Below, in pieces: positions 2,772-39,599 of a stretch of DNA of 39,785 nt. This DNA is from Thermoplasmata archaeon. GTDB lineage: Archaea; Thermoplasmatota; Thermoplasmata; Thermoplasmatales; Thermoplasmataceae. A program made the position numbers and the translations under genes. Under the pieces are notes generated by a model, which was not told the origin of the DNA, searched no databases, and saw nothing but the letters and a program-made list of their open reading frames with translations. The DNA lies in the NCBI GenBank assembly GCA_021797555.1, contig JAJZZM010000010.1, forward strand, positions 1-39,785. The letters are read 5' to 3'. Numbering within the stretch: position 1 is the stretch's first letter; each line of letters starts with the position of its first letter.

Positions 2772-2942
2772 GAGACCATATTATTAATATATTAAAATTA
2801 TTTTTGTTATAATTTAATTAATTTAGTTATAATATCACTGTAAAAAAATTTAAATATGCATTTATTATAGCATACTATACTTAAGTAATTTTCTGTATTG
2901 TGAACCCTTGTATGGATTCCCTGACATAATAAAGGTGTTTAA

Positions 2943-4187
2943 ATGGATAATTTTGATCAATTGGATAATGGAAAGGCAGGGTCTCAGAAGAAATTGTTTA
3001 CATTAGCCTCTATGGGATTATTCCTCGATGGGTATGATTTGTCTATAATAACAATGGCAATACTGGTTATCCCATCACAGCTGGACCTTACCAAACTTGA
3101 ATATGTGCTTGTTGATGTATCATCCTTTGCCGGGATGCTTATAGGTGCCCCAATACTTGGAGTGTTATCTGATAGAATAGGAAGAAAAAAAATTTTTGGG
3201 CTGGATCTGATATTTTTTGTTGTATTTGCTATAACTTCTGGTCTGTCAGGCAATTTTATTGAATTGTTTTTATCCAGATTATTAATGGGCATTGGCATAG
3301 GTGGCGATTATCCTATAAGCTCAACAATGATGTCTGAGTTCTCTCCCAAGAAATACAGGGGAAAATTGTTAATAACAATGGTTGGCATGTACTGGCTCGG
3401 TGCCTTTGTTTCTTCTGCGGTAAATTATGTTTTTGTAATTTATCCATACTTCTGGAGATACACATTTATCATAGGTGGATTAATAGCAATACCTGTAATA
3501 TTATTAAGGTTTGAGATACCTGAATCACCAAGATGGATAGCATCAAAGGAAAAAACTGAAAATGATAAAAATAAATACAGTAAAAAATCACCCAAATTTT
3601 ATACAATGTTAATATTTGTTCTGCTTGCATGGTTTATATTTGATATTGCTGCATATGGCATTGGTTTCTATTATCCTGTTATTTTCAGTACTTTAGGCTT
3701 TAAGGATCAGTTCAGGCCAATAGCAGAAATAAGCATGTTAATATCAATAGGAGGCATTTCCGGCTATTTAATAGCCCTGCCATTAGCCGATAGAATAGGA
3801 AGAAGGTTCCTGATAATAGCAGGATTTTTTATAATGTCCGTACTTTTAATTCTGGGGTCTGTTATAAAAATAACAGGATTGTATACAGTTCCATTCTTCT
3901 TTTTATTTGTTTTATTTGAACAGTGGGTAGGTGCAGTTACATTATTTTATCCAACTGAAATATTTGACACATCAATAAGATCCAGTATGCAGGGGCTTGC
4001 AACGGCTGTTTCAAGAGTGGGTGCAATTATGGGCATTGTTTTATTTCCATTATTTCCCATATTTAGTTCCCTGTCCATATTTGCAGGGTTCTCGGTTGTG
4101 GGGTTGGTTCTTGTCATTTTCCTGGCACCTGAAACCAAAAATGCATCACTTGAAAAAAATGTGGAAAATTATACATTATCGAAATGA
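2943..4187 (+). CDS. MFS transporter, sugar/organic-acid:proton symporter type
   Basis: A 414-residue polytopic protein with about 12 membrane helices and the signatures of the major facilitator superfamily: the loop 2-3 motif LSDRIGRKK (about 74-82), RLLMGIGIGGDYPISS with STMMSEFSPKKYRGK in the middle of the N-terminal half, PESPRW at the end of helix 6, and a second ADRIGRR motif in the C-terminal half. The GGDYP and SPKKYRG forms are like those of phosphate, aromatic-acid and sugar symporters; the substrate cannot be read from sequence. The ATG at 2943 follows a Shine-Dalgarno-like AAGGTG at 2932-2937. It has a long leader, unlike most genes here. Confidence 0.85.
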   Translation: MDNFDQLDNGKAGSQKKLFTLASMGLFLDGYDLSIITMAILVIPSQLDLTKLEYVLVDVSSFAGMLIGAPILGVLSDRIGRKKIFGLDLIFFVVFAITSGLSGNFIELFLSRLLMGIGIGGDYPISSTMMSEFSPKKYRGKLLITMVGMYWLGAFVSSAVNYVFVIYPYFWRYTFIIGGLIAIPVILLRFEIPESPRWIASKEKTENDKNKYSKKSPKFYTMLIFVLLAWFIFDIAAYGIGFYYPVIFSTLGFKDQFRPIAEISMLISIGGISGYLIALPLADRIGRRFLIIAGFFIMSVLLILGSVIKITGLYTVPFFFLFVLFEQWVGAVTLFYPTEIFDTSIRSSMQGLATAVSRVGAIMGIVLFPLFPIFSSLSIFAGFSVVGLVLVIFLAPETKNASLEKNVENYTLSK

Positions 4188-10425: not shown

Positions 10426-12933
10426 TTATCCTACAGCACCCATTTTTGACATTTCCAGTTTTACTAACCTGTTCATCTCAACTGCAAATTCCATGGGTAT
10501 TTCTTTCATTATATCATCCATGAATCCAAGGACTATCATTGATGATGCTTCATCCTCGCTCAGTCCCCTTGACCTCAGATATGTTAGCTCTTCTGTTCCT
10601 ATTTTTCCAACTGTTGCTTCATGGCTGAATGTTGCTGTGGGCTCATATATTTCATCATAAGGATAGGTATAGTTCTTTGAATCATTATTTATTAATAATG
10701 CATCGCACTGTACATGGCTTTTTGCGTTTTTTGCACCCTCATTCATTCTTACCAATCCACGGTATGCCGTTAATCCATCATCCAGGCTTATTGATTTGGA
10801 TACGATCCTTGATGTTGTGTCAGGTGCCATATGTATGGCTTTTCCCCCGGCATCCTTAAATGTCCCTTTTGTTGCCAATGTTATCTGTAGATTAGAGGTT
10901 GATGCCCCCCTTCCCCTTAAGTATGATGATGGATATATCATTGTTACCTTTGAACCAAGTTCCCCAGTAACCCAGTCCATATGGGCACCTTCATCTACCC
11001 ATGCTCTTTTGACAGGCAGGTTATATACACTATCGGACCAGTTCTGAACACTTGTATATTTTACATCTGAATATTTTCTTGCGTATATTTCAACTATTGC
11101 CGTATGTAATGAGCTCGTATTGTATTTCGGAGCAGTGCAGTTATGAACAGCGAATCCCTTTACCAGATATGAATCATCTGTTTCAACTTCAAGATTATAT
11201 ACAATATCATTGTATTCTTCACGCTCAATCTTCTTTATTGGGACATAATAATAGTTATTTTTATGCCTTACCCTGCTGAATTTTATATTTTCGGTATATT
11301 CTATTATATATTGTTCTTTTCTTTTAATTGATCTACCTTTCATTTTATCACTGGAAGCAGGCCTAATCATTATACTTGCAAATATGTTATTCCTTGAAAG
11401 CATTTCCTGGATCTGCAGTGCAAGGGTTCTGCTTGTTGTAGCTGCCCTTACCATTTTTGATTTTCCTTTTTTCATGTATACATTGCCATCACCTTTCAGA
11501 TAATAGTCTATTAAAAATTTCTGCTTTTCCTTTGGAAGTTTCATAACATTATCTGAAAAGACCTTTTTATCTGCGTATTTTCCACCATTTTTAAAGCAGA
11601 ATTTTATCAGTGATTTTGAGTATGTTGACACTGTATAGTATTTCTTCCTTGACATGTATATATTTGCCTGCTCACCGATTCCCTTTATCGTATCATACAA
11701 ATCATATGCAATTTCCTTCTCCTTATCTGAGTCTCCAAATGAAAACACCATCTGTTCCATTTTCAATGATGTATTAAATGATATAGAGCCTTCTGCCATG
11801 TACAGTCCAAGAATTTTCAGCATATTTTCATTTATGGAATCGTCATCTTTAGTTGCCACAGGAGATACATATACTATGAAATCTCCCTCACTAAGTTCAT
11901 CTGTTCTTCTGTAAACCGGTTCTACTTCCATTAATTTTTTAGTTGAAATTTCATCATACCCATTTCTCCTCCTGGATATAACATCCTCTTTCTTTATACT
12001 TAAAACTGGGTGTTCCGATGTTGCCTTAAAAGCATTTCCTGGAGATAACGGTATAATTTTGTACATAAATCCGTTGTAAGGATGCACATATTTTCTGGTG
12101 ATTTTCCTTTTGTTTCCAGTATTGGAAATAACATCATTGCCTGTAAGTAATTCATCTATTCTGACAAATTTATCTCCCTGGCTTACCAGCTCATCTTCTG
12201 GCAAGCATCCTTCTATGTAGTGAACTTTTGCCCCTTCATCTGCAACTACTATTGTGTGCTCGAACTGCCCGCTCTGTTCACCGTTTAATCTGAAATATGT
12301 CTGCAATGGCATATCTATTGTAACATTTTTAGGTACATATAAAAATGAACCTCCTGACCATACTGCACCATTTAAAGCTGCAAATTTATTATCGCTTGGC
12401 GGTATTGCCTTGCAGTAATAATCCTTTACTAAATCAGGGTATTTCTGTATTGCTGTATCTAAATCTGTAAATACTACTCCTTTATCTTCCCATTCTTTTT
12501 TCAGGCTTGCATAAACACCCTCACTGTCATACTGTGCTACAGATCCTGCCAAATATTTCTGTTCCATCTGCGGAATCCCTAATTTATTGAAAGTGTCCTT
12601 TATTTTATCTGGCACATCATCCCAGTTCTTCGCCTTTGATTCGCCGGGTTTTGTATAGTACGTAAGTTCATCAAAGTTTATCTCGGATAAATCCGGGCCC
12701 CATGTCGGCATTGGCTTTGATAAAAATATATTTAGAGACTTTAGCCTCATTCTTCTCATCCAGTCAGGTTCATTTTTTATATCTGATATTTCATTAACGA
12801 CTTTTTCGTTTAGGCCCTTGCCTGTGGAATAAACCGGATTTATTTTATCATAAAATTCGAAATCCGATTTTTTGCTATGTTTTAAACTTTCAGTTAATTT
12901 TTCTATTTCTTCATCCTTACTATAATCTTCCAT
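10426..12933 (-). CDS. sufB: SufB, Fe-S cluster scaffold, interrupted by an intein
   Basis: The main scaffold of the SUF system. Read from ATG 12933 the precursor has 835 residues. Residues 1-242 and 599-835 are the SufB exteins, about 479 residues when joined, a normal SufB length. Residues 243-598 are an intein. SufB signatures are AVWSGGSFLYVPK, VVADEGAKVHYIEG | CTAPKYNTSSLHTAIVEI, the conserved Cys in SHVQCDALLIN, and YLRSRGLSEDEA at the end. The ATG at 12933 follows GAGTGAT. The in-frame GTG at 12942 is inside that signal and overlaps the sufC stop, so it is the weaker choice. Translation is likely coupled to sufC. Active SufB requires removal of the intein. Confidence 0.93.
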   Translation of the reverse strand: MEDYSKDEEIEKLTESLKHSKKSDFEFYDKINPVYSTGKGLNEKVVNEISDIKNEPDWMRRMRLKSLNIFLSKPMPTWGPDLSEINFDELTYYTKPGESKAKNWDDVPDKIKDTFNKLGIPQMEQKYLAGSVAQYDSEGVYASLKKEWEDKGVVFTDLDTAIQKYPDLVKDYYCKAIPPSDNKFAALNGAVWSGGSFLYVPKNVTIDMPLQTYFRLNGEQSGQFEHTIVVADEGAKVHYIEGCLPEDELVSQGDKFVRIDELLTGNDVISNTGNKRKITRKYVHPYNGFMYKIIPLSPGNAFKATSEHPVLSIKKEDVISRRRNGYDEISTKKLMEVEPVYRRTDELSEGDFIVYVSPVATKDDDSINENMLKILGLYMAEGSISFNTSLKMEQMVFSFGDSDKEKEIAYDLYDTIKGIGEQANIYMSRKKYYTVSTYSKSLIKFCFKNGGKYADKKVFSDNVMKLPKEKQKFLIDYYLKGDGNVYMKKGKSKMVRAATTSRTLALQIQEMLSRNNIFASIMIRPASSDKMKGRSIKRKEQYIIEYTENIKFSRVRHKNNYYYVPIKKIEREEYNDIVYNLEVETDDSYLVKGFAVHNCTAPKYNTSSLHTAIVEIYARKYSDVKYTSVQNWSDSVYNLPVKRAWVDEGAHMDWVTGELGSKVTMIYPSSYLRGRGASTSNLQITLATKGTFKDAGGKAIHMAPDTTSRIVSKSISLDDGLTAYRGLVRMNEGAKNAKSHVQCDALLINNDSKNYTYPYDEIYEPTATFSHEATVGKIGTEELTYLRSRGLSEDEASSMIVLGFMDDIMKEIPMEFAVEMNRLVKLEMSKMGAVG
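11140..12207 (-). other. SufB intein with LAGLIDADG homing endonuclease domain
   Basis: A 356-residue intein, reading Cys1 (CLPEDELV) to His-Asn (GFAVHN), followed by the extein Cys of CTAP. Splicing blocks are visible: block A with Cys1; block B with TSEH, where the Thr and His are the usual pair; block F/G DDSYLVKGFAVHN with the penultimate His and terminal Asn. Two LAGLIDADG motifs (ILGLYMAEGS about 132 residues into the intein, FLIDYYLKGDG about 231) have acidic residues (Glu, Asp) in the catalytic positions, so the endonuclease may still cut. The +1 residue is Cys, giving a Cys/Asn/Cys class 1 intein. SufB inteins have been listed for Ferroplasma, as I recall, so the host gene is not novel. 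Confidence 0.93.
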
Positions 12934-12938
12934 AATTA

Positions 12939-13682
12939 TCACTCCGTTATCCAGTCGTATCCTTCATCTTCTATTTTATCGGATACACTTTTATCTCCAT
13001 TCATTACTATTCTGCCATCTTTTAACACATGCACAAATTCAGGCCTTATATCCTTTAATATCCTCTGGTAATGTGTTATTATCAGGAATCCAACATGCTG
13101 GTCATGCATTTTTTTAATTTCTGCGGAAACAAGCTTCAGTGCATCAACATCCAGACCTGAATCTATTTCATCAAGTATTACTATTTTTGGTTTTAATACA
13201 ACCATTTGGAGTATTTCAAATCTCTTTCTTTCCCCTCCCGAGAAACCATCATTTATTGACCTTGATATAAACGATTCGTTCATATCTATATCTTTCATTG
13301 TGCTTTTTACCATATTGAAGAAATCCTTTAATGACATTTTCTCTTCTGGGTATAAATTATTATATGCCATTCTTAAAAATGTCGATATCTTTACACCGCT
13401 TATAGAAATGGGACTCTGAAATGCAAGGAATAAACCTGCTTTTGCCCGATCTTCTGGAGCTGCATATGTCATATCCTTATTATTGATTAATATTTTTCCT
13501 GATATAATTTTATAGTTTGGGTGACCTATTAATACCTCGCCCAATGTGCTTTTGCCTGCACCATTTGGTCCCATCAGGGCATGAATTTCCCCAGATTTTA
13601 CTGTAAGGTCTATGCCCTTAAGTATCTCTTTATCTTCAACGTTTGCCTTTAAGTTTTTAATTTCAAGTACTGTTTCATTCAT
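12939..13682 (-). CDS. sufC: SufC, ATPase of the SufBCD complex
   Basis: A 247-residue ABC-type ATPase that drives conformational change in SufBD during Fe-S cluster assembly. Walker A GPNGAGKST lies near 38-46, the Q-loop in LAFQSPI near 88, the ABC signature SGGERKR near 150, Walker B IVILDEIDSGLD near 170 and the switch His in THYQR near 204. FQSPISISGV and the SGGERKRFEILQM form are specific to SufC rather than transporters. It is the first gene of the operon; its TGA overlaps the upstream in-frame GTG of sufB by 4 bases. Confidence 0.95.
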   Translation of the reverse strand: MNETVLEIKNLKANVEDKEILKGIDLTVKSGEIHALMGPNGAGKSTLGEVLIGHPNYKIISGKILINNKDMTYAAPEDRAKAGLFLAFQSPISISGVKISTFLRMAYNNLYPEEKMSLKDFFNMVKSTMKDIDMNESFISRSINDGFSGGERKRFEILQMVVLKPKIVILDEIDSGLDVDALKLVSAEIKKMHDQHVGFLIITHYQRILKDIRPEFVHVLKDGRIVMNGDKSVSDKIEDEGYDWITE

Positions 13683-31944: not shown

Positions 31945-32148
31945 TTTTATTAAGCATTAATTATTATATTAAATACCTAATATTAATTTTAAAAATGAAA
32001 AATCCATGAGGATATTAATATCATATTCTGGCAATAATCAAAATACTGTTTTATACACAGGATTTATATAGTACAGCGCCCCGAGCGGAAGCTCTCACAA
32101 TTGTTTAAATCCCGTAATCATTATATTGCTTATGGGTGATTATTAATT
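31945..32148. promoter_or_regulatory. junction region before the integrase: TATA box and GC-rich island (candidate attachment site)
   Basis: A TATA box (TTTATATA, 32063-32070) precedes a conspicuously GC-rich segment at 32073-32115 (starting GCGCCCCGAGCGGAAGC and ending with a T-loop-like TTTAAATCCCG). GGGTGA near 32135 is a plausible Shine-Dalgarno for the integrase ATG at 32149. The island might be the attachment core or a decayed tRNA 3' end, but I could not fold a tRNA: the T-loop lacks its C at the usual place and the flanking arms do not pair. Host sequence to its left and element genes to its right are the reason to place attL here. Confidence 0.4.
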
Positions 32149-33417
32149 ATGGATGCAAAAATATCAGAGGAATACAACGCACTTAAAAATGAAAATATTC
32201 CTGAAAGGGATAAAAAGAAGATCCTGGATTTTGTAAATGACCTTGCATTAGAAGGCATATCCGAGATTAGAAGGAAAAACTACATTCAAAGGCTCAGGGT
32301 GGCAGCAAGATGGGTCCCTGATAAATTTACAGATCCATCAAGGGATGATTTAAGAAAAATACGTGAGCATTTAGATGATGGCTATATCCATAACGGAAGG
32401 AAAAAACATTATTCTGAATGGACAAAGGCAACATACCTTAAAATGCTTAAGAAATTCTACAGGTATACATTGCCAGAAAAACAGTTTAATGATCTTTTCA
32501 GGAATGTAAAAATAAATTCAAATCCAGGATCAAAAATTAAGCCTGAACAGATGATAAGGCCATGGGAAATTCAGAAGATGGTTGAAAGTGCAACAAATTC
32601 AAGGGACAGGGCATTGCTTTATACATTGTATGATTCAGGATGCAGAATCGGTGAGATACTAACATTAAAAATAAAGGATCTTGAATTTGATGATTATGGA
32701 TGCATTATAAAGGTTACAGGCAAAACCGGATACAGAAATGTGAGGATAGTTGGAAATTCAATACCTTATTTAAGGGCGTGGCTTGATTCACATCCGTTCA
32801 GGAATGACAGGGAGGCATGGCTTTTTTGTAATCTTGAGTCTAATATAAAGGGAAGGATGATGGAATACCAGAATGTCTATTCAACAATAAGGAATGCTGT
32901 AAGGAATGCAGGCCTGGATCCTGAAAGAAGGATATACCCGCATCTATTCAGGCATACAAGGGCAACAATACTTGCAACAAAATTAAATGAGGTCCCACTT
33001 GAAAACCAGATGGGTTGGATCCATGGATCCAAGATGACCGGTATTTATGTCCATGTGTCAGGGAGGGATCAGGATAATGCTGTTCTTAAGGCATACGGCC
33101 TTAAGGTTGATGATAATAGAGAGATTGAGGAAAGGCCCATAACATGCCCAAGATGCCATGAGCTTAATGATTCCAATGCAAAGTATTGCAGAAGGTGCTG
33201 GCTTCCATTCGATGAGAAGCTGGCCCTGGAATATGAAAATAGGGAAAAGGAAATAGAGAATAAAATAGAGAAATCAGAGGCAATACCAGGAATAGCAAAG
33301 AAGATGATAGAGAATGCACCGGAATCATTTAAATCAAAATTAATAGAGAATGTCCTGGAGGAAATATTAAAGGATCCTGGACTGTTAGAGAAATTCAGGA
33401 AAGAGTTAAATCAATAA
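32149..33417 (+). CDS. tyrosine recombinase/integrase with C-terminal zinc ribbon
   Basis: A 422-residue site-specific recombinase that integrates the element. The SAM-like N-terminal domain (1-125) is followed by the catalytic domain with Arg166 (SGCRIGEIL), the HLFRHTRA box (His265, Arg268), His292 (GWIHGS) and the nucleophile Tyr300 (MTGIYVH). After the catalytic domain comes an unusual zinc-ribbon (Cys333, Cys336, Cys347, Cys350: CPRC...CRRC) and a Lys/Glu-rich helical tail of about 70 residues. XerA-like archaeal recombinases often end shortly after the Tyr, so the extra tail may bind DNA or a partner. The gene is complete and not split by an attachment site. Confidence 0.88.
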   Translation: MDAKISEEYNALKNENIPERDKKKILDFVNDLALEGISEIRRKNYIQRLRVAARWVPDKFTDPSRDDLRKIREHLDDGYIHNGRKKHYSEWTKATYLKMLKKFYRYTLPEKQFNDLFRNVKINSNPGSKIKPEQMIRPWEIQKMVESATNSRDRALLYTLYDSGCRIGEILTLKIKDLEFDDYGCIIKVTGKTGYRNVRIVGNSIPYLRAWLDSHPFRNDREAWLFCNLESNIKGRMMEYQNVYSTIRNAVRNAGLDPERRIYPHLFRHTRATILATKLNEVPLENQMGWIHGSKMTGIYVHVSGRDQDNAVLKAYGLKVDDNREIEERPITCPRCHELNDSNAKYCRRCWLPFDEKLALEYENREKEIENKIEKSEAIPGIAKKMIENAPESFKSKLIENVLEEILKDPGLLEKFRKELNQ

Positions 33418-33818
33418 AAAATATATTATTTTATGGAGTTCAGATAGTTGTAGTTTTGGTTTTTTATTTATTAACACATAATATAACCTATATTATCGAT
33501 GCATCGACATAAAATCAGTGTTTTAAGCATAATTATCGATAATGGAATTAAATAGGCATAATTTTTTTCTAATATGGATATCTTATTTAATTATGCTCTT
33601 ATGACAAAATATGCAAAAGATGAAAGAATTTAAAATTATACTTCCTTCCTTCCCTTTTGTTTTGAAGAAGTATGGGGGCACGGCCACCCCATGACGTTTT
33701 CCGGTTTACGAATATCATTAATTAATTGTGCTGATGGGGAGGGGGGAGTGGCAATGGTAGGTATTAAATGAAAGTATGTTGAAAAAACGTTAATAATATC
33801 GCACACATTAAATATTCT
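33418..33818. other. 401-base non-coding stretch between integrase and winged-helix gene
   Basis: Contains two 12-bp perfect palindromes (33496-33507 TCGATGCATCGA and 33532-33543 ATTATCGATAAT), a copy of AGTGTTTTA at 33517-33525, a GC-rich hairpin (ATGGGG at 33672-33677 and CCCCAT at 33687-33692), and a 27-codon frame at 33611-33694 that I do not trust. G+C rises sharply at about 33640-33765 (with runs such as GGGGAGGGGGGAG), so a structured RNA is possible. The promoter of the next gene (TAATAATATC, 33791-33800) is at the end. Confidence 0.55.
33496..33543. repeat. two adjacent 12-bp palindromes
   Basis: TCGATGCATCGA (33496-33507) and ATTATCGATAAT (33532-33543) are each perfect palindromes, 36 bp apart centre to centre, and share the core ATCGAT. 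Such twin sites are typical of dimeric DNA-binding proteins, perhaps the integrase or an accessory factor. Confidence 0.55.
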
Positions 33819-33827
33819 ATGGAATAC
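33813..33827. promoter_or_regulatory. iteron-type site overlapping the winged-helix gene start
   Basis: TATTC at 33813-33817 and GAATA at 33822-33826 form an inverted pair over the ATG (33819-33821), and GGAATAC at 33821-33827 matches the dyad's heptamer. On a leaderless transcript this would be at the RNA 5' end, so binding would block its own expression. Confidence 0.45.
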
Positions 33828-34061
33828 AAATTTACGATATCCCTGAATGTAAAGATGGATGAAACAGATCTGGCCATTATGGATATATTTCAGAGGTTTC
33901 CGGCAAGGCATTTTCACGCACACCAGATAAGGGCAATTCTGGAATACAATGGAATTGAAATCAGCACCATGAAACTGGTAATGAAATTGCAGTTCTTTTC
34001 CTATATTTCTCTGATAAGGGTGGAAAAAGGAGGAAGGACGATGAGATACAGCCTTGCATGA
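33819..34061 (+). CDS. small winged-helix protein, probable element regulator/initiator
   Basis: An 80-residue protein with a winged-helix layout: DLAIMDIFQRFP (helix 1), HAHQIRAILEYNG (helix 2), ISTMKLVMKLQFFSYI (recognition helix), then a wing in VEKGGRTMRYSLA. A TATA-like TAATAATATC lies about 25 bases before the ATG. The ATG itself is part of a GGAATAC site (33821-33827), the same heptamer that makes up the dyad at 34413-34727, and another copy lies inside the gene (33942-33948). This suggests the protein may bind the dyad and its own start region. The function is an inference; no Rep motif is visible. Confidence 0.62.
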   Translation: MEYKFTISLNVKMDETDLAIMDIFQRFPARHFHAHQIRAILEYNGIEISTMKLVMKLQFFSYISLIRVEKGGRTMRYSLA

Positions 34062-34230: not shown

Positions 34231-34352
34231 AAAAATCATGGATCATGAATTTTAGTTTTGAATAACCATGGATTTAAAAAAATTAAGATTAGGCCATAAT
34301 TGTTTTTTAAAAAAATCATGGACCATGGAATTTTAGTTTTTGAATAACCAGG
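34231..34352 (+). repeat. pair of ~42-bp direct repeats, 80-bp period
   Basis: Copy 1 (34231-34272) and copy 2 (34311-34352) share AAAAATCATGGA, CATG, AATTTTAGTTTT and GAATAACCA with one to three indels or changes. They immediately precede the dyad and might be additional origin or control repeats. Confidence 0.6.
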
Positions 34353-34412
34353 AAATGAATTTTTTAAAAATAGATTTTTTTTAATCTATGAAATTTAACA
34401 AACTCTAGCAAA

Positions 34413-34727
34413 ATTTTGTATTCCAATTTTTAAAAATGGAATACAAATGGAATACAAAATGGAATACAAAGATAAATTAGTGTTTTACTATATCTCTATA
34501 TAATTTTATATTATGTATTCTAGTATTCTATTATTTTATAATAAAAAATAGCAGATAGGCATGACGAATTTCGACATGATTTCTAAAAATATAATATATA
34601 CAAAAATTATGGAATACAAGAATACAATAAAAAAAAATTGATTATAGAATTAGTGTTTTAAGGGTTTTTTGTTGTATTCCATTTGTATTCCATTTGTATT
34701 CCATTTTTAAAAATTGGAATACAAAAT
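34413..34727. repeat. origin-like dyad: 12 symmetric GTATTCC/GGAATAC-type sites
   Basis: A 46-bp perfect inverted repeat (34413-34458 and 34682-34727) flanks a 223-bp core. Exact heptamers occur at 34418, 34438, 34449 and 34461 on the left and at 34674, 34685, 34696 and 34716 on the right. An inner pair (34515 and 34523, both one base off) faces 34611 (exact) and 34619 (one base off). Nearly all site pairs add up to the same mirror point, 34570. The centre carries CATG-A-CGAA-T-TTCG-A-CATG (34560-34578), a hyphenated palindrome. Arm spacing is mostly 11-12 bp, one DNA turn. Replication origin or partition site is the best reading; I cannot prove it. Confidence 0.75.
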
Positions 34728-34952
34728 ATTTTTATTTTAATGTATATATTTTATGTTTGTATTATGGTAACTCTTTATTTTAAAGTAAAAATAAATATTC
34801 ACTTATTTTTATATTATAAAATTCAATTTTTCAAATTGCATGGAAACCCAGTGTTTTATCTTAACAATAGAAGAGAATATTATAAGATGATTTTTATATT
34901 ATAAAATAGTGATTGTGAAGATTTTATCTTCATTAGTTTTGCTTTTTTAATT

Positions 34953-35720
34953 TTATCTTATCTTATTATCTCTACCATCATTCTTTATTTTTCCTATTAT
35001 TTTTTTTAATTCCTCTTTATAAATTTCATCCATGGCAGCAGGACCTGGAAAATACGAGACGGAGACTTTAGGTTCGATCATGCCCCAGCATATTTGTTCT
35101 ACAACGGGGCGATGCATATCCGGTCTCCTGAATATATCAATAAGGGTGTGAACTGCAATGCTAAAATCTAAAAAGTGCTTAAAACCACTATCTTCATAAA
35201 GCATGTCATCTGCTTTTCTTTTAAGTATATCAAGTTCTGTCGATGAGTGATTTGTGCCAAAAGAAATATTATAAAGCTCGGTTATAAATTTATCCTGCTT
35301 AATATTTTTTATATACTCACTTATCCAATAGTCATCTGGAAATCTGGTATTTTCCATATCTGTTCTGAAATGGTACCAAGGCTCTTCATTCTTTGATTTC
35401 CAGGCCTCTCCCTCCCTGTTAACCTTTACCACATCTCCCTCTTCTATAAGCTTTTTGAGAGCTGCCTTTATAGATTTATACTTATCCTTCTTTGACCTTA
35501 TCAGGTCTCCCTTGCATAAATTATAAAAATCCACTAGATTGAAAATTGAGATATATTTCCCTCCATTCTTGCTATCGCTTTTCATTGATTGATATAGGGC
35601 TACCCAGATTCGATCTTTCACACTCCTCCCCCACCTAAAATCCATTGCTGAAGGGGCTTCAAAAATATTATTAGGTAATTCTATATTATTAGGTAATTCT
35701 TTATCTTTAATTTTTTTCAT
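34953..35720 (-). CDS. 255-residue element protein of unknown function
   Basis: I do not recognise it. It begins with a tandem ELPNNI-ELPNNI, caused by a 17-base unit repeated at 18 bases (35666-35700). Residues about 55-105 (ISIFNLVDFYNLCKGD ... IKAALKKLIEEGDVVKVNREGEAW) look like a winged-helix domain. The rest is helical, with many Tyr, Lys and Asp, and ends in a basic tail. A DNA-binding regulator is most likely. It is on the minus strand, apart from the plus-strand operon. Confidence 0.55.
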   Translation of the reverse strand: MKKIKDKELPNNIELPNNIFEAPSAMDFRWGRSVKDRIWVALYQSMKSDSKNGGKYISIFNLVDFYNLCKGDLIRSKKDKYKSIKAALKKLIEEGDVVKVNREGEAWKSKNEEPWYHFRTDMENTRFPDDYWISEYIKNIKQDKFITELYNISFGTNHSSTELDILKRKADDMLYEDSGFKHFLDFSIAVHTLIDIFRRPDMHRPVVEQICWGMIEPKVSVSYFPGPAAMDEIYKEELKKIIGKIKNDGRDNKIR

Positions 35721-35828: not shown

Positions 35829-36002
35829 ATGAGAACTGCTGGCAAAAAAGTTACAAAGTTTAACGGCTCCTTGTATGCGTTAATTCCTTTTTATGTGGCC
35901 GAGCCGTATGAGATAGATAAAGGATCGGATATAGAAATAGATACATCACACAAGAATGTTCTAATATTAAAAATAAAAAAGGAGGCAAAAGAATGTCATT
36001 AA
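35829..36002 (+). CDS. AbrB/SpoVT-type small DNA-binding protein
   Basis: A 57-residue protein (MRTAGKKVTKFNGSLYALIP ... ILKIKKEAKECH). VTKFNGSLYALIPFYVAEPYEIDKGSDIEID follows the swapped-hairpin pattern of AbrB domains: a first strand, a proline-bearing loop, a helix and a strand ending in a hydrophobic block. AbrB-type proteins act as dimeric transcription regulators or as antitoxin parts. It was too small for automatic listing but has a TATA box and a proper start. Its last four bases overlap the next gene tail to tail. Confidence 0.68.
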   Translation: MRTAGKKVTKFNGSLYALIPFYVAEPYEIDKGSDIEIDTSHKNVLILKIKKEAKECH

Positions 36003-36154
36003 AGTTTTTCTATAATAAGATTCCCATTATCTTCAAGTGTAATTTTAAGCTGCTCACCATTAGAAAAGGACAGATTTTTTGTAATACTTTTTGGCACGTA
36101 AATTCTTCCAGCTCCATCGCGGTCAATATAAAATTTGCAGGTAGATTTTTGCAT
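35999..36154 (-). CDS. second AbrB/SpoVT-type small DNA-binding protein
   Basis: A 51-residue protein on the minus strand (MQKSTCKFYIDRDGAGRIYV ... NLIIEKL). The stretch DRDGAGRIYVPKSITKNLSFSNGEQLKITLEDNG is a clean AbrB signature: a G-R-I-x-V-P-x-x-I core, then a helix, then the G-x-x-L-x-I-x-x-x strand. A minus-strand TATA-like TTTATATAAC lies about 25-30 bases upstream. It faces the other AbrB gene tail to tail with a 4-base overlap, and shares its upstream region with the replication operon, so it may control rep. Confidence 0.72.
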   Translation of the reverse strand: MQKSTCKFYIDRDGAGRIYVPKSITKNLSFSNGEQLKITLEDNGNLIIEKL

Positions 36155-36384: not shown

Positions 36385-36483
36385 ATGGCAATAGAGAGGC
36401 AAAGCCAATTAACTTTTAATCCCATTTTTTTAATGGGCTTGAAGGTAAATAAACTTTTCTTAGGTGAGGTATTTAAAAGATGA
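36385..36483 (+). CDS. micro-ORF 2, overlapping the rep start (32 aa)
   Basis: A 32-residue peptide, MAIERQSQLTFNPIFLMGLK, ending LGEVFKR. GGAGGG (36371-36376) precedes it. Its TGA overlaps the rep ATG (ATGA, 36480-36483), so translation of rep is probably coupled to it, a usual way to hold replication-protein levels low. No similarity is recognised. Confidence 0.45.
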   Translation: MAIERQSQLTFNPIFLMGLKVNKLFLGEVFKR

Positions 36484-39400
36484 TAAATAAATACATAGAT
36501 GATTATATAAAAAACAAGATTCCGGTATTTCTGCTCCAACCACACAGAAAGGACCCTATTCCTGGCTCGAAAGGATTCAAGGACTGGACAAAGGATGAAA
36601 AAATTATAAGATCCTGGAAGACAGAGAATATTGGAATACCTACAGGCGATATTTCAGGTATTTTTGTCTATGACACCGATATTAAAACTGGTGAAAATGG
36701 ATCCATAGGAATAAACGGCCTTTATGGTTTTTTAAAAATATTAAAATTGAATACACTCGATGACTATATAAAGAAATATCCAGATGCATTCATAGTTCAA
36801 ACAGGATCCGGCTATCAAATTTACTTTAGAATTCCTCCTGGCCTTGATCATAATCTTCGTAATACAACAAACATCAACGGATTTAAAGGACTCGATGTTA
36901 GAGGTAACGGTGGTTATGTTGTTGCTCCAGGATCCATTCATCCCAATGGCAATGAATACAAAATAATCCATGGTTCATTGGATAAAATCCCATTAATGCC
37001 CGAGGGGCTTTACAATTTCTGGCATTCACATGATCACCCCGATTTATTATCTGATGATTTTAACGAGCCAAGAATGCCGATGAACCTTGATGATAAAACC
37101 CTGAATTTAGATACTGAAACTACAGCAATGATATTCAAAAAAACTCCTGTGAACGAGGGCAATAATTTATTAATGGCACATGCCGGAGCTCATGCCTTAA
37201 GGGGTGTAAGCATTGAAAATGAAAAAATAATTTTAAAGGAGGCTGCAGCCCTTAATCACTGGAATGGCAAAATCAATTTTGCAACGGTTGATGATTCATA
37301 TAAACGTGTTGAAATGCAAAAATCCGGAAGGATACCTGAAAAGGAAAAATCAAAAACATTTGTTAAAGGCTACACAACATTAAAAAGGATTATAATGGAA
37401 AATAAGGAAAATTATCCTGATTATGATAAAATAATGAAAAACATGGAGGAAATCTTTGAAAGCAGAAGAAATTTAAACAGCATAGAATTTGAGCTGGATG
37501 ATGGCAAATATATTGGATATAACTGTGTTAAAAATTATTTTTATTCCGCATATGAATATGAAAAGAACGGGGAAATAAAGGCATCACACGAACTTATTTT
37601 TAATATTCCCATAAAATTCAAAGGACTTGTTGTAGATGATAACGGCAATAAATTCATAAATGCCATAATAAACGGCAATGATAATTATTACACACTTGAG
37701 GACTTTAAAAATGAGATGAAAAATTACGCAGTAGCAGGTTCTGATCTTAAAAAAATCGTAGAATTTTTAATTGCCTATATGAATGATAAAAATAACATAA
37801 AAAATACAAAATATATTCATCCTGACGGCATTTATATCGATGAAGGCAATGTAATCAGAACCGATAACTCCTATAAAATAGACCTGGAATCCACATTGGA
37901 AACAACATACAAAATATATGAAATTTCCACATCACCTAACAATTTCCTTATTAATTTTGCATATTATTTAATTTCACCATTGTCATATTACATTAGAAAA
38001 CAAAACAAATTATTTCCATATTTAATCAATGCAGGCCCACACCAGACAGGTAAAACCTCAGATATGCTTTTATTCGGTAATCTTGGCTATGCCCAGGATT
38101 TTCTAAAATCACATTTCACCAGGAACGATTTAAAAACATTCTATACACTAATGAAATCAAGATCAGAATCCATATTGCCCATAACCCTTGAGGATGTAGA
38201 CATAGACTGGATAAGATCGCAGGCAACAATGCTAAAAGGATCGGCAGGCACAATAAATGGAGGTTCCAGAGGTTATTTTAACAGGGTTATAAAATACGAA
38301 TCAAAATCTCAATTAACCTTTGATACAAATGATACTGTTGATGTTGAGACTGCACAGCTTGATAGGTTCATTGTATGTAATTTTAATGTTGATGACATTA
38401 ACAGAATAAATATTGCAAAATTCGATGAATTAAAAGGTAAATTAAATCCTGGATTTATGTTTACAATTTTTGATGCAGTTTTTGGTGGCAAGAATTTGAA
38501 TGAAATAATAAAAGATCTTTACAATGTCCAAAACAGGGATTCTTTAAAAATCAACATTATAAACTATGTTGTTAGCAAAATAAATAAGATAATGCCTAAT
38601 AATATGCAATTCAAAATGCCAGATTTTAGTCTTTTGCACAATGAAAATAATGAAACTGACTGGTATGCAGAAATTTATAATACTGGAAAATATGTATGCA
38701 GTCAGTTTAAATCTGATGAAAAGGTTCACATTTACGAATTAAACGAAACACAAATTGATTTCAATGAAAATTCACTTTTCCTTACAGCCGGTGGTTATCT
38801 ACTCTTGCAGAAACATTTAAATATACCATATAAAAGCATTACAAAACTATATAATAATACTGAAAGCAAGGATTTCATAGTTAAATTCACATCTCATAGA
38901 TTTGCCGGAGAAGATAATCATCCATTAAAATGTTTAATTATAGCACCAATTGAATCAGATGACCCGCCAGAGATAAGGGAAATAAAGGAGAAGATAGCAC
39001 AGCTTGAGGAAATTAAAAAGAAATTAAAGGCCAGTAACATAGACACAGAAGGCATTGATAAAACCATTGATGAATTAAATGCAAAAATAGAATCAATAAA
39101 AAGATCTTTGGAAGAAAATAAGGCCAATAACCAGGAGGAAAATAAAACTGATAAGGCCATTAAAAACAATGATGAAAACAAAACAGAGAATACCGACATT
39201 GATAATGATATAGAATCATTGCCAGATGGCCCAGTAAAACAATCATTAATAGAAGAAAGAGAATTAAAGGAAAGCAAAAAGGCCAGTAAAATCAATACTG
39301 ATAATAATGCAAACAAAACTATAACAATTCCTGGAAATCTAAAAACTTATTATTACCAGGTAACAAAAAATTTCAACAAATACGATGCATCATTTTTCAT

Positions 39401-39599
39401 TGGTTCTGATATATTCTTTGATAGCTCCAGGACAATACTTAAAAAAGATTCATCAGAAATATCGTACGTTCTTTTAAAACTCTTAATGCCTGACAAATTA
39501 AATAATACACCAAAGGACTGGAATAAATTTTTATCAGATTCCAGGCCCCTAAAATCTGAAACCGAGTATAACGTATTATCCAGGGGTGATTTATCATGA
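36480..39599 (+). CDS. replication protein: primase-polymerase plus superfamily 3-like helicase
   Basis: A 1039-residue, two-function replicase. The N-terminal Prim-Pol domain has the metal motif YDTD (Asp65, Asp67), the TGSGYQIYF strand near 108, and DVRGNGGYVVAPGSIHPNG near 139-157 with the conserved His154. This is the bifunctional primase-polymerase of archaeal plasmids and viruses. The middle (about 200-480) has no known motif. The helicase has Walker A GPHQTGKTS at 519-527, a Walker B-like stretch ILPITLEDVD near 566-575, and LKGSAGTINGGSRGYFN. A long coiled coil (about 830-895) with Asn/Glu/Lys-rich sequence follows. Its start overlaps micro-ORF 2 and its TGA overlaps the next gene by 4 bases. 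Confidence 0.88.
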   Translation: MINKYIDDYIKNKIPVFLLQPHRKDPIPGSKGFKDWTKDEKIIRSWKTENIGIPTGDISGIFVYDTDIKTGENGSIGINGLYGFLKILKLNTLDDYIKKYPDAFIVQTGSGYQIYFRIPPGLDHNLRNTTNINGFKGLDVRGNGGYVVAPGSIHPNGNEYKIIHGSLDKIPLMPEGLYNFWHSHDHPDLLSDDFNEPRMPMNLDDKTLNLDTETTAMIFKKTPVNEGNNLLMAHAGAHALRGVSIENEKIILKEAAALNHWNGKINFATVDDSYKRVEMQKSGRIPEKEKSKTFVKGYTTLKRIIMENKENYPDYDKIMKNMEEIFESRRNLNSIEFELDDGKYIGYNCVKNYFYSAYEYEKNGEIKASHELIFNIPIKFKGLVVDDNGNKFINAIINGNDNYYTLEDFKNEMKNYAVAGSDLKKIVEFLIAYMNDKNNIKNTKYIHPDGIYIDEGNVIRTDNSYKIDLESTLETTYKIYEISTSPNNFLINFAYYLISPLSYYIRKQNKLFPYLINAGPHQTGKTSDMLLFGNLGYAQDFLKSHFTRNDLKTFYTLMKSRSESILPITLEDVDIDWIRSQATMLKGSAGTINGGSRGYFNRVIKYESKSQLTFDTNDTVDVETAQLDRFIVCNFNVDDINRINIAKFDELKGKLNPGFMFTIFDAVFGGKNLNEIIKDLYNVQNRDSLKINIINYVVSKINKIMPNNMQFKMPDFSLLHNENNETDWYAEIYNTGKYVCSQFKSDEKVHIYELNETQIDFNENSLFLTAGGYLLLQKHLNIPYKSITKLYNNTESKDFIVKFTSHRFAGEDNHPLKCLIIAPIESDDPPEIREIKEKIAQLEEIKKKLKASNIDTEGIDKTIDELNAKIESIKRSLEENKANNQEENKTDKAIKNNDENKTENTDIDNDIESLPDGPVKQSLIEERELKESKKASKINTDNNANKTITIPGNLKTYYYQVTKNFNKYDASFFIGSDIFFDSSRTILKKDSSEISYVLLKLLMPDKLNNTPKDWNKFLSDSRPLKSETEYNVLSRGDLS

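Follow-up and report, generated by a model that had tools for sequence, protein, structure and literature searches.

The replication origins of most archaeal plasmids are, to our knowledge, not known; pRN1, which has no iterons, is one well-studied Prim-Pol plasmid. At the origins of archaeal chromosomes, initiator boxes in inverted orientation flank an AT-rich element. In iteron plasmids and satellite islands of the SaPI type, an element-encoded helicase initiator reads short repeats, and in phage P4 the type 1 repeats are bound by the alpha primase-helicase. These repeats (GGTGAACA) are marked in both crr and ori in the P4 record (X51522). The primase of P4 alpha is of the Toprim type, and the origin of pRN1, which lies downstream of orf904, is a stem-loop of ∼ 100 bp without iterons (PMC4234260). 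Here we describe a two-fold symmetric array of short sites from a Thermoplasmata element, whose spacing plan recurs beside one family of helicase genes and resembles the crr unit of P4, and which is likely to be the replication origin of that element.

Results

A mirrored array of twelve sites

The array occupies positions 34413-34727 of the window (the whole stretch of DNA that was analysed, 39,785 nt), which is the whole of contig C19 of a 1.94-Mb genome (G000) that is 99.56% complete and has a gene content suggestive of a Thermoplasmatales archaeon; the array occurs once in this genome. There are twelve GGAATACA-type sites, nine of them exact, in the order - +++ -- (left half) and ++ --- + (right half), with GGAATACA as +. 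The left half begins with an outer single on the minus strand (34417-34424, exact), followed by a plus-strand triple at 34438, 34449 and 34461 (34438-34468, spaced 11 and 12 bp, all exact) and a minus-strand inner pair 8 bp apart at 34514 and 34522 (34514-34529, 1 and 2 mismatches). The right half has a plus-strand inner pair, also 8 bp apart, at 34611 and 34619 (34611-34626, 0 and 1 mismatch), a minus-strand triple spaced 11 bp at 34673, 34684 and 34695 (34673-34702, exact) and an outer single on the plus strand (34716-34723, exact). The start of one site and the end of its mirror partner add up to 69140 in five of the six pairs and to 69141 in the sixth, which places the centre of symmetry at base 34570. 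The arms (34413-34458 and 34682-34727) form a perfect 46-bp inverted repeat, inside a 49-nt repeat at 98%, and are separated by 223 bp. The centre of the array is 82% AT and carries the hyphenated palindrome CATGACGAATTTCGACATG (34560-34578, centre 34569). The gap between triple and pair is 53/54 bp, one turn above that usual in the family (see below).

The window contains 21 copies of the heptamer GGAATAC where 4.57 would be expected, a count that none of 100 shuffles reached, and nine exact copies fall within 34418-34722. An ungapped reverse-complement scan about one centre found 46 matched bases in runs at the array; 16 composition-matched resamplings of 430 kb gave a top score of 20, against these 46, and three runs at no centre. 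The original prediction had described a twelve-site array mirrored mostly to the base about 34570, perfect 46-bp arms, a palindrome at the centre and a chance expectation of four to five heptamers per window, and all of this agrees with the figures given here.

The palindrome was considered as a defining part of such arrays and rejected: it is found in the window, L036, L109 and L052 and is missing from most arrays. A second motif, (A/C)AGTGTTTTA, is present as direct repeats within the array and close to it (34475-34487, 34648-34660, 33512-33525 and 34849-34860), and a GGAAACCGTGAAAT-like motif lies between array sites in L052 and L089. To the left of the array is a direct repeat, the copies ∼ 80 bp apart (34231-34277, AAAAATCATGGAYCATG.., and 34311-34359, TTTTGAATAACCA), one copy of which is the flank conserved with the element of genome G003.

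The array lies in an integrated element

Judged by its sequence, the carrier of the array is a plasmid-like element of ∼ 9.9 kb integrated in tRNA-Asp(GTC). Its left end is marked by the attL core CGCCCCGAGCGG (32077-32088, plus strand), and the identical 12 bp at C14:1905-1916 lie 3′-terminally in an intact tRNA-Asp(GTC); attR is on another contig. The uninterrupted tRNA-Asp(GTC) site is present in G007, with which chromosomal synteny breaks off at about 31950. To judge by its colinearity with G066, the element lacks ∼ 0.27 kb where the two contigs break off, and the size estimate follows from this. Elsewhere in the window, a SufB-like protein (10426-12942) has an apparent intein, recognized by eye between ..HYIEGC and NCTAPKYNTSS, with LAGLIDADG-like motifs.

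One gene encodes a tyrosine recombinase with a C-terminal zinc ribbon (32149-33417, plus strand; PF00589, 7.8e-22), an integrase whose family adjoins tRNA ends in other elements too. It is followed by an 80-aa winged-helix-like protein (33819-34061, plus) with relatives in elements that have other kinds of repeat. Beyond the array are a 255-aa protein to which no function was assigned (34953-35720, minus), with relatives only in the G094 and G020 elements, which are without this array type; a 57-aa AbrB-like protein (35829-36002, plus), recognized by eye and with no Pfam match; and a 51-aa MazE/AbrB-like protein (35999-36154, minus; PF04014, 4e-4, below the gathering score). The proposed initiator, a 1039-aa primase-polymerase/helicase (36480-39599, plus; PF09250, 9.5e-23 at aa 8-174), begins 1.75 kb downstream of the array. 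Several further small proteins are also encoded. Among the element ORFs scanned with Pfam, which come from a sequence short of ∼ 0.27 kb, there was no partition (ParA/ParM/AspA-like) or capsid gene and no Orc1/Cdc6-like match.

The 1039-aa protein is a mosaic. Residues 1-327 and the C-terminal tail (aa 859-1037; 39054-39590, plus strand) match G003, G066 and G009, the tail being kept in elements with another helicase. The helicase module (aa ∼ 388-830; 37641-38969, plus), with the Walker A motif GPHQTGKT, matches only the helicase family of the array-bearing loci, to which it is common. This module had no match in Pfam, NCBIfam or PHROG, its profile found nothing significant among solved structures, and a single-sequence AlphaFold model of the protein (pLDDT 34) was too poor for use. 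Type I members of the helicase family were found only in genomes of the class Thermoplasmata, within limited sampling and with viral-contig searches that use short conserved words. Those viral-contig searches, run with the 255-aa protein and with the helicase, gave nothing, and tblastn against plasmids gave nothing beyond distant Prim-Pol domains.

The spacing plan recurs while the site word changes

Relatives were gathered with a Prim-Pol/helicase search and their loci were then scanned for repeated words. Each of the eight discovery loci, the window included, has an intact-looking gene of the helicase family and an array of the same plan. The half-array common to them is a triple with a site every 11-12 bp, then 43-46 bp of gap (53-54 bp in the window) and an opposed pair whose sites are 7-9 bp apart. 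The word is TGTAGTCA in G108 and on contig C69 of G106, TGTAGTTA in G060, TGTAGTA in G076 and G024, TGTGGTA on contig C57 of G106 and GGTAGTAA in G029. The G108 array, from another family of the order, has twelve sites in the same order as the window (- +++ -- and ++ --- +), and they mirror to the base, all six pairs having the sum 1823. In L036 the opposed gaps are 43/43. When G024 is taken as a duplicate of G076, five of the seven independent arrays contain the strict module, compared with a mean of 0.042 for random site placement (maximum 2 in 3000). Polarity is a caveat: with words aligned as TGTA-type, outward-pointing triples are found in the window, G029, G076, G024 and G106:C57 and inward-pointing ones in G108, G060 and G106:C69.

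The plan was fixed before profile searches added further family members, and four of the added loci show it (G467, two in G093, and G650). The G467 array, from a different family at class level, has twelve CATGGTCA sites (- +++ -- and ++ ----) with gaps of 12, 10, 12, 41 and 8 bp, about 70 bp at the centre, and 9, 41, 12, 11 and 10 bp. The two G093 loci (word GGTTACC, gaps 67-68 and 45 bp) and G650 (word TGTCCCG, gap 30 bp) have the triple and the opposed pair, and the arrays of G093:C2 and G650 overlap the rep reading frame. Across loci, triple-to-pair gaps of 30, 42-46, 53-54 and 67-68 bp are only suggestive of strict quantization in helical turns, and L034 has 44 and 50 bp. A 12-bp tandem repeat of twenty copies was also observed in G467 (L173:4363-4609), in a gene coding SVWASVGASV-type repeats.

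Three other helicase-family loci (G498 and two in G015) have repeats without a clear plan, and none are seen in G034. In G046 the contig stops close to the helicase; no array accompanies the isolated helicase gene of G011 or the truncated one of G017, both in decayed-looking elements. When the doubled site was sought as an exact pattern in collections of genomes and viruses, only unrelated single matches came up.

The plan is thus present at eleven further Thermoplasmata loci, next to helicase genes of this one family or within them. Over all loci it has about three sites at intervals of 10-12 bp, then usually 42-46 bp, then opposed sites paired at 8-9 bp, and it is usually mirrored. The layout is not unique; the original prediction knew of no archaeal plasmid origin with exactly this arrangement. 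The accompanying proposal that the spacing itself is under selection is strengthened, because the spacing is retained although the site word differs between loci.

Array and helicase change together

The helicase is the only gene family common to all eight discovery loci. Compared with the window, the G003 element keeps the primase domain of the protein (42%), its tail (38%) and the flanking sequence on either side of the array (34313-34353, blastn 93% over 41 bp; 34768-34907, 81% over 141 bp; both plus strand), whereas the helicase and the array are both replaced. Since the array between the conserved flanks cannot be aligned by blastn, helicase and array have been exchanged together. G003 and G009 have canonical SF3 helicases (D5_N/DUF5906) and arrays of another plan.

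Site words differ even within one genome: G106 holds TGTGGTA and TGTAGTCA, and G000 holds three words (C19, C20 and C2). The distance between words tracks that between helicases (Mantel r 0.57, reached in 0 of 5000 permutations), a correlation dominated by two helicase clades. Some arrays lie inside the rep frame, in the C-terminal linker region (L089:11132-11354 in G000:C2, which is of the SF3 type; L176:1058-1430 in G093; L175:1542-1740 in G650), so one stretch of DNA is both coding sequence and candidate binding array.

The winged-helix product (33819) had been named as a possible binder of the array, which is unlikely because relatives of this 80-aa protein sit in elements without the layout. 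Several of these (L101, L102, L103, L105 and L106) have direct iteron-like repeats, e.g. GGTTCACA in six copies, a number of which lie inside small reading frames. Nearly identical array stretches occur in G029:C65 and G024:C63.

The half-array resembles the crr unit of phage P4

When rescored, the P4 crr unit consists of a pair (9 bp), an opposed gap of 43 bp, a triple (11 and 7 bp) and an opposed single (14 bp), a count of six sites that includes the middle site of the triple, which has 2 mismatches and is unannotated in the record. The spacings in P4 ori are 10, 11, 22, 43 and 10 bp; among the crr/ori repeats are an opposed gap of 43 bp and pairs with their sites 9-10 bp apart. The half-array of the window is likewise a six-site unit of pair, gap (43 bp in P4, 53/54 bp here), triple and single, and is likewise present twice. 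By hhalign, the type I helicase is not significantly similar to P4 alpha (probability 9% and 0.2%), and the match is therefore one of geometry only.

A second element of the same genome (G000:C20; L088:7351-7648, integrase 2793-4013) has an array of a third kind, GTGTTCA/GTGTTCC with an opposed 43-bp gap; its word is close to the GGTGAACA of P4. It also has a duplicated ATCAGAT-containing block, and the contig stops before any helicase.

Discussion

We consider it likely that the array is the cis-acting replication origin of the element (ori and/or crr), bound by its own primase-polymerase/helicase, because the layout recurs at genes of the same primase/helicase family and matches the annotated crr unit of P4. 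Binding would probably go through a DNA-binding region within the helicase module. As the two halves of six sites each (single, triple, pair) are mirrored about the AT-rich centre, two helicase assemblies would load facing one another; they would open this centre, the Prim-Pol would prime, and replication would proceed from it in both directions. Some observations fit this reading less well: the array lies 1.75 kb from the gene in the window, the plan is unclear or missing at four family loci (G498, two in G015, and G034), the resemblance to P4 is confined to geometry, and two clades dominate the correlation between words and helicases. We speculate, with considerable doubt, that the six sites of a half-array seat the six subunits of one ring, giving two rings head to head, and that in this plan P4 and archaeal elements share a loading code that is ancient and independent of sequence, its reader here being a helicase family not described in databases.

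The original prediction offered the array as an origin or a partition site, and of the two it is the origin that gains from the recurrence of the plan and from the P4 match. A centromere that segregates the element, bound by a small plasmid-encoded DNA-binding protein, would be in keeping with clustered symmetric sites between small regulator-like genes, and partition sites are often repeat arrays; this reading is weak because no ParA/AspA-like gene was found (nor a ParM-like one, among the element ORFs examined) and the helicase is the only gene that the array loci share, and arrays can moreover sit within the rep gene (L089, G093, G650). We regard partition as very improbable. It is no more plausible to see in the array an operator through which the 80-aa winged-helix, the 255-aa or the AbrB-like proteins control divergent genes. 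The intergenic region is indeed long, and replication regulators often bind near origins, but elements that lack this layout carry relatives of both the 80-aa and the 255-aa protein, operators seldom have 43-bp opposed gaps or a two-fold symmetry that spans 300 bp, and the array type goes with the helicase. Binding by a host protein (a chromosomal initiator, a chromatin protein or a recombinase) would recall the inverted boxes around an AT-rich element at chromosomal origins; that the words differ between elements of one genome (G106; C19, C20 and C2 of G000) and follow the helicase of each element makes it extremely unlikely.

A narrower question arises within the origin reading itself. The array could be an accessory element of the crr kind that needs a separate ori elsewhere, as in P4, and its six-site unit is indeed closer to P4 crr than to P4 ori. 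The window's share of the element has no second cluster of these sites, although ∼ 0.27 kb is missing and an ori could have other motifs; we think this version possible but rather unlikely.

If the array is the origin, its interest lies in a spacing plan that persists although both the site sequence and the intervening DNA change. Because the plan is kept amid changing words, origin, initiator and specificity could be tested in pairs across natural variants, and the plan offers an easy guide to the origins of elements from uncultured archaea.

Like the pRN1-family plasmids of Sulfolobus, whose ORF904 combines Prim-Pol, SF3 helicase and winged helix, the carrier is a small element with a PF09250 Prim-Pol joined to a helicase; unlike pRN1, it has twelve iterons and arms 223 bp apart in place of a single ∼ 100-bp stem-loop. 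Iteron-type origins, too, have clustered short repeats in linkage with a rep gene; the two-fold 6+6 plan sets the array apart from iteron plasmids and SaPI-type islands. From an Orc1/Cdc6 chromosomal origin the array is distinguished in that no orc1/cdc6 gene was found beside inverted boxes among the scanned proteins. The SF3-type (D5_N/DUF5906) arrays of G003, G009 and G000:C2 are also symmetric, belong to elements with the same integrase family and, in G003 and G009, take the same place, but their plan is another (+63-, 95, +63-; +68-, 78, +68-), as are their words, and G003 has eight sites. P4 is close in layout and, like the window, has a primase-helicase fusion as its initiator (here the proposed one); its crr units are direct 120-bp repeats, whereas those of the window are inverted about one centre, and the site words differ. 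The plan thus links the origin layout proposed for these archaeal elements to that of phage P4.
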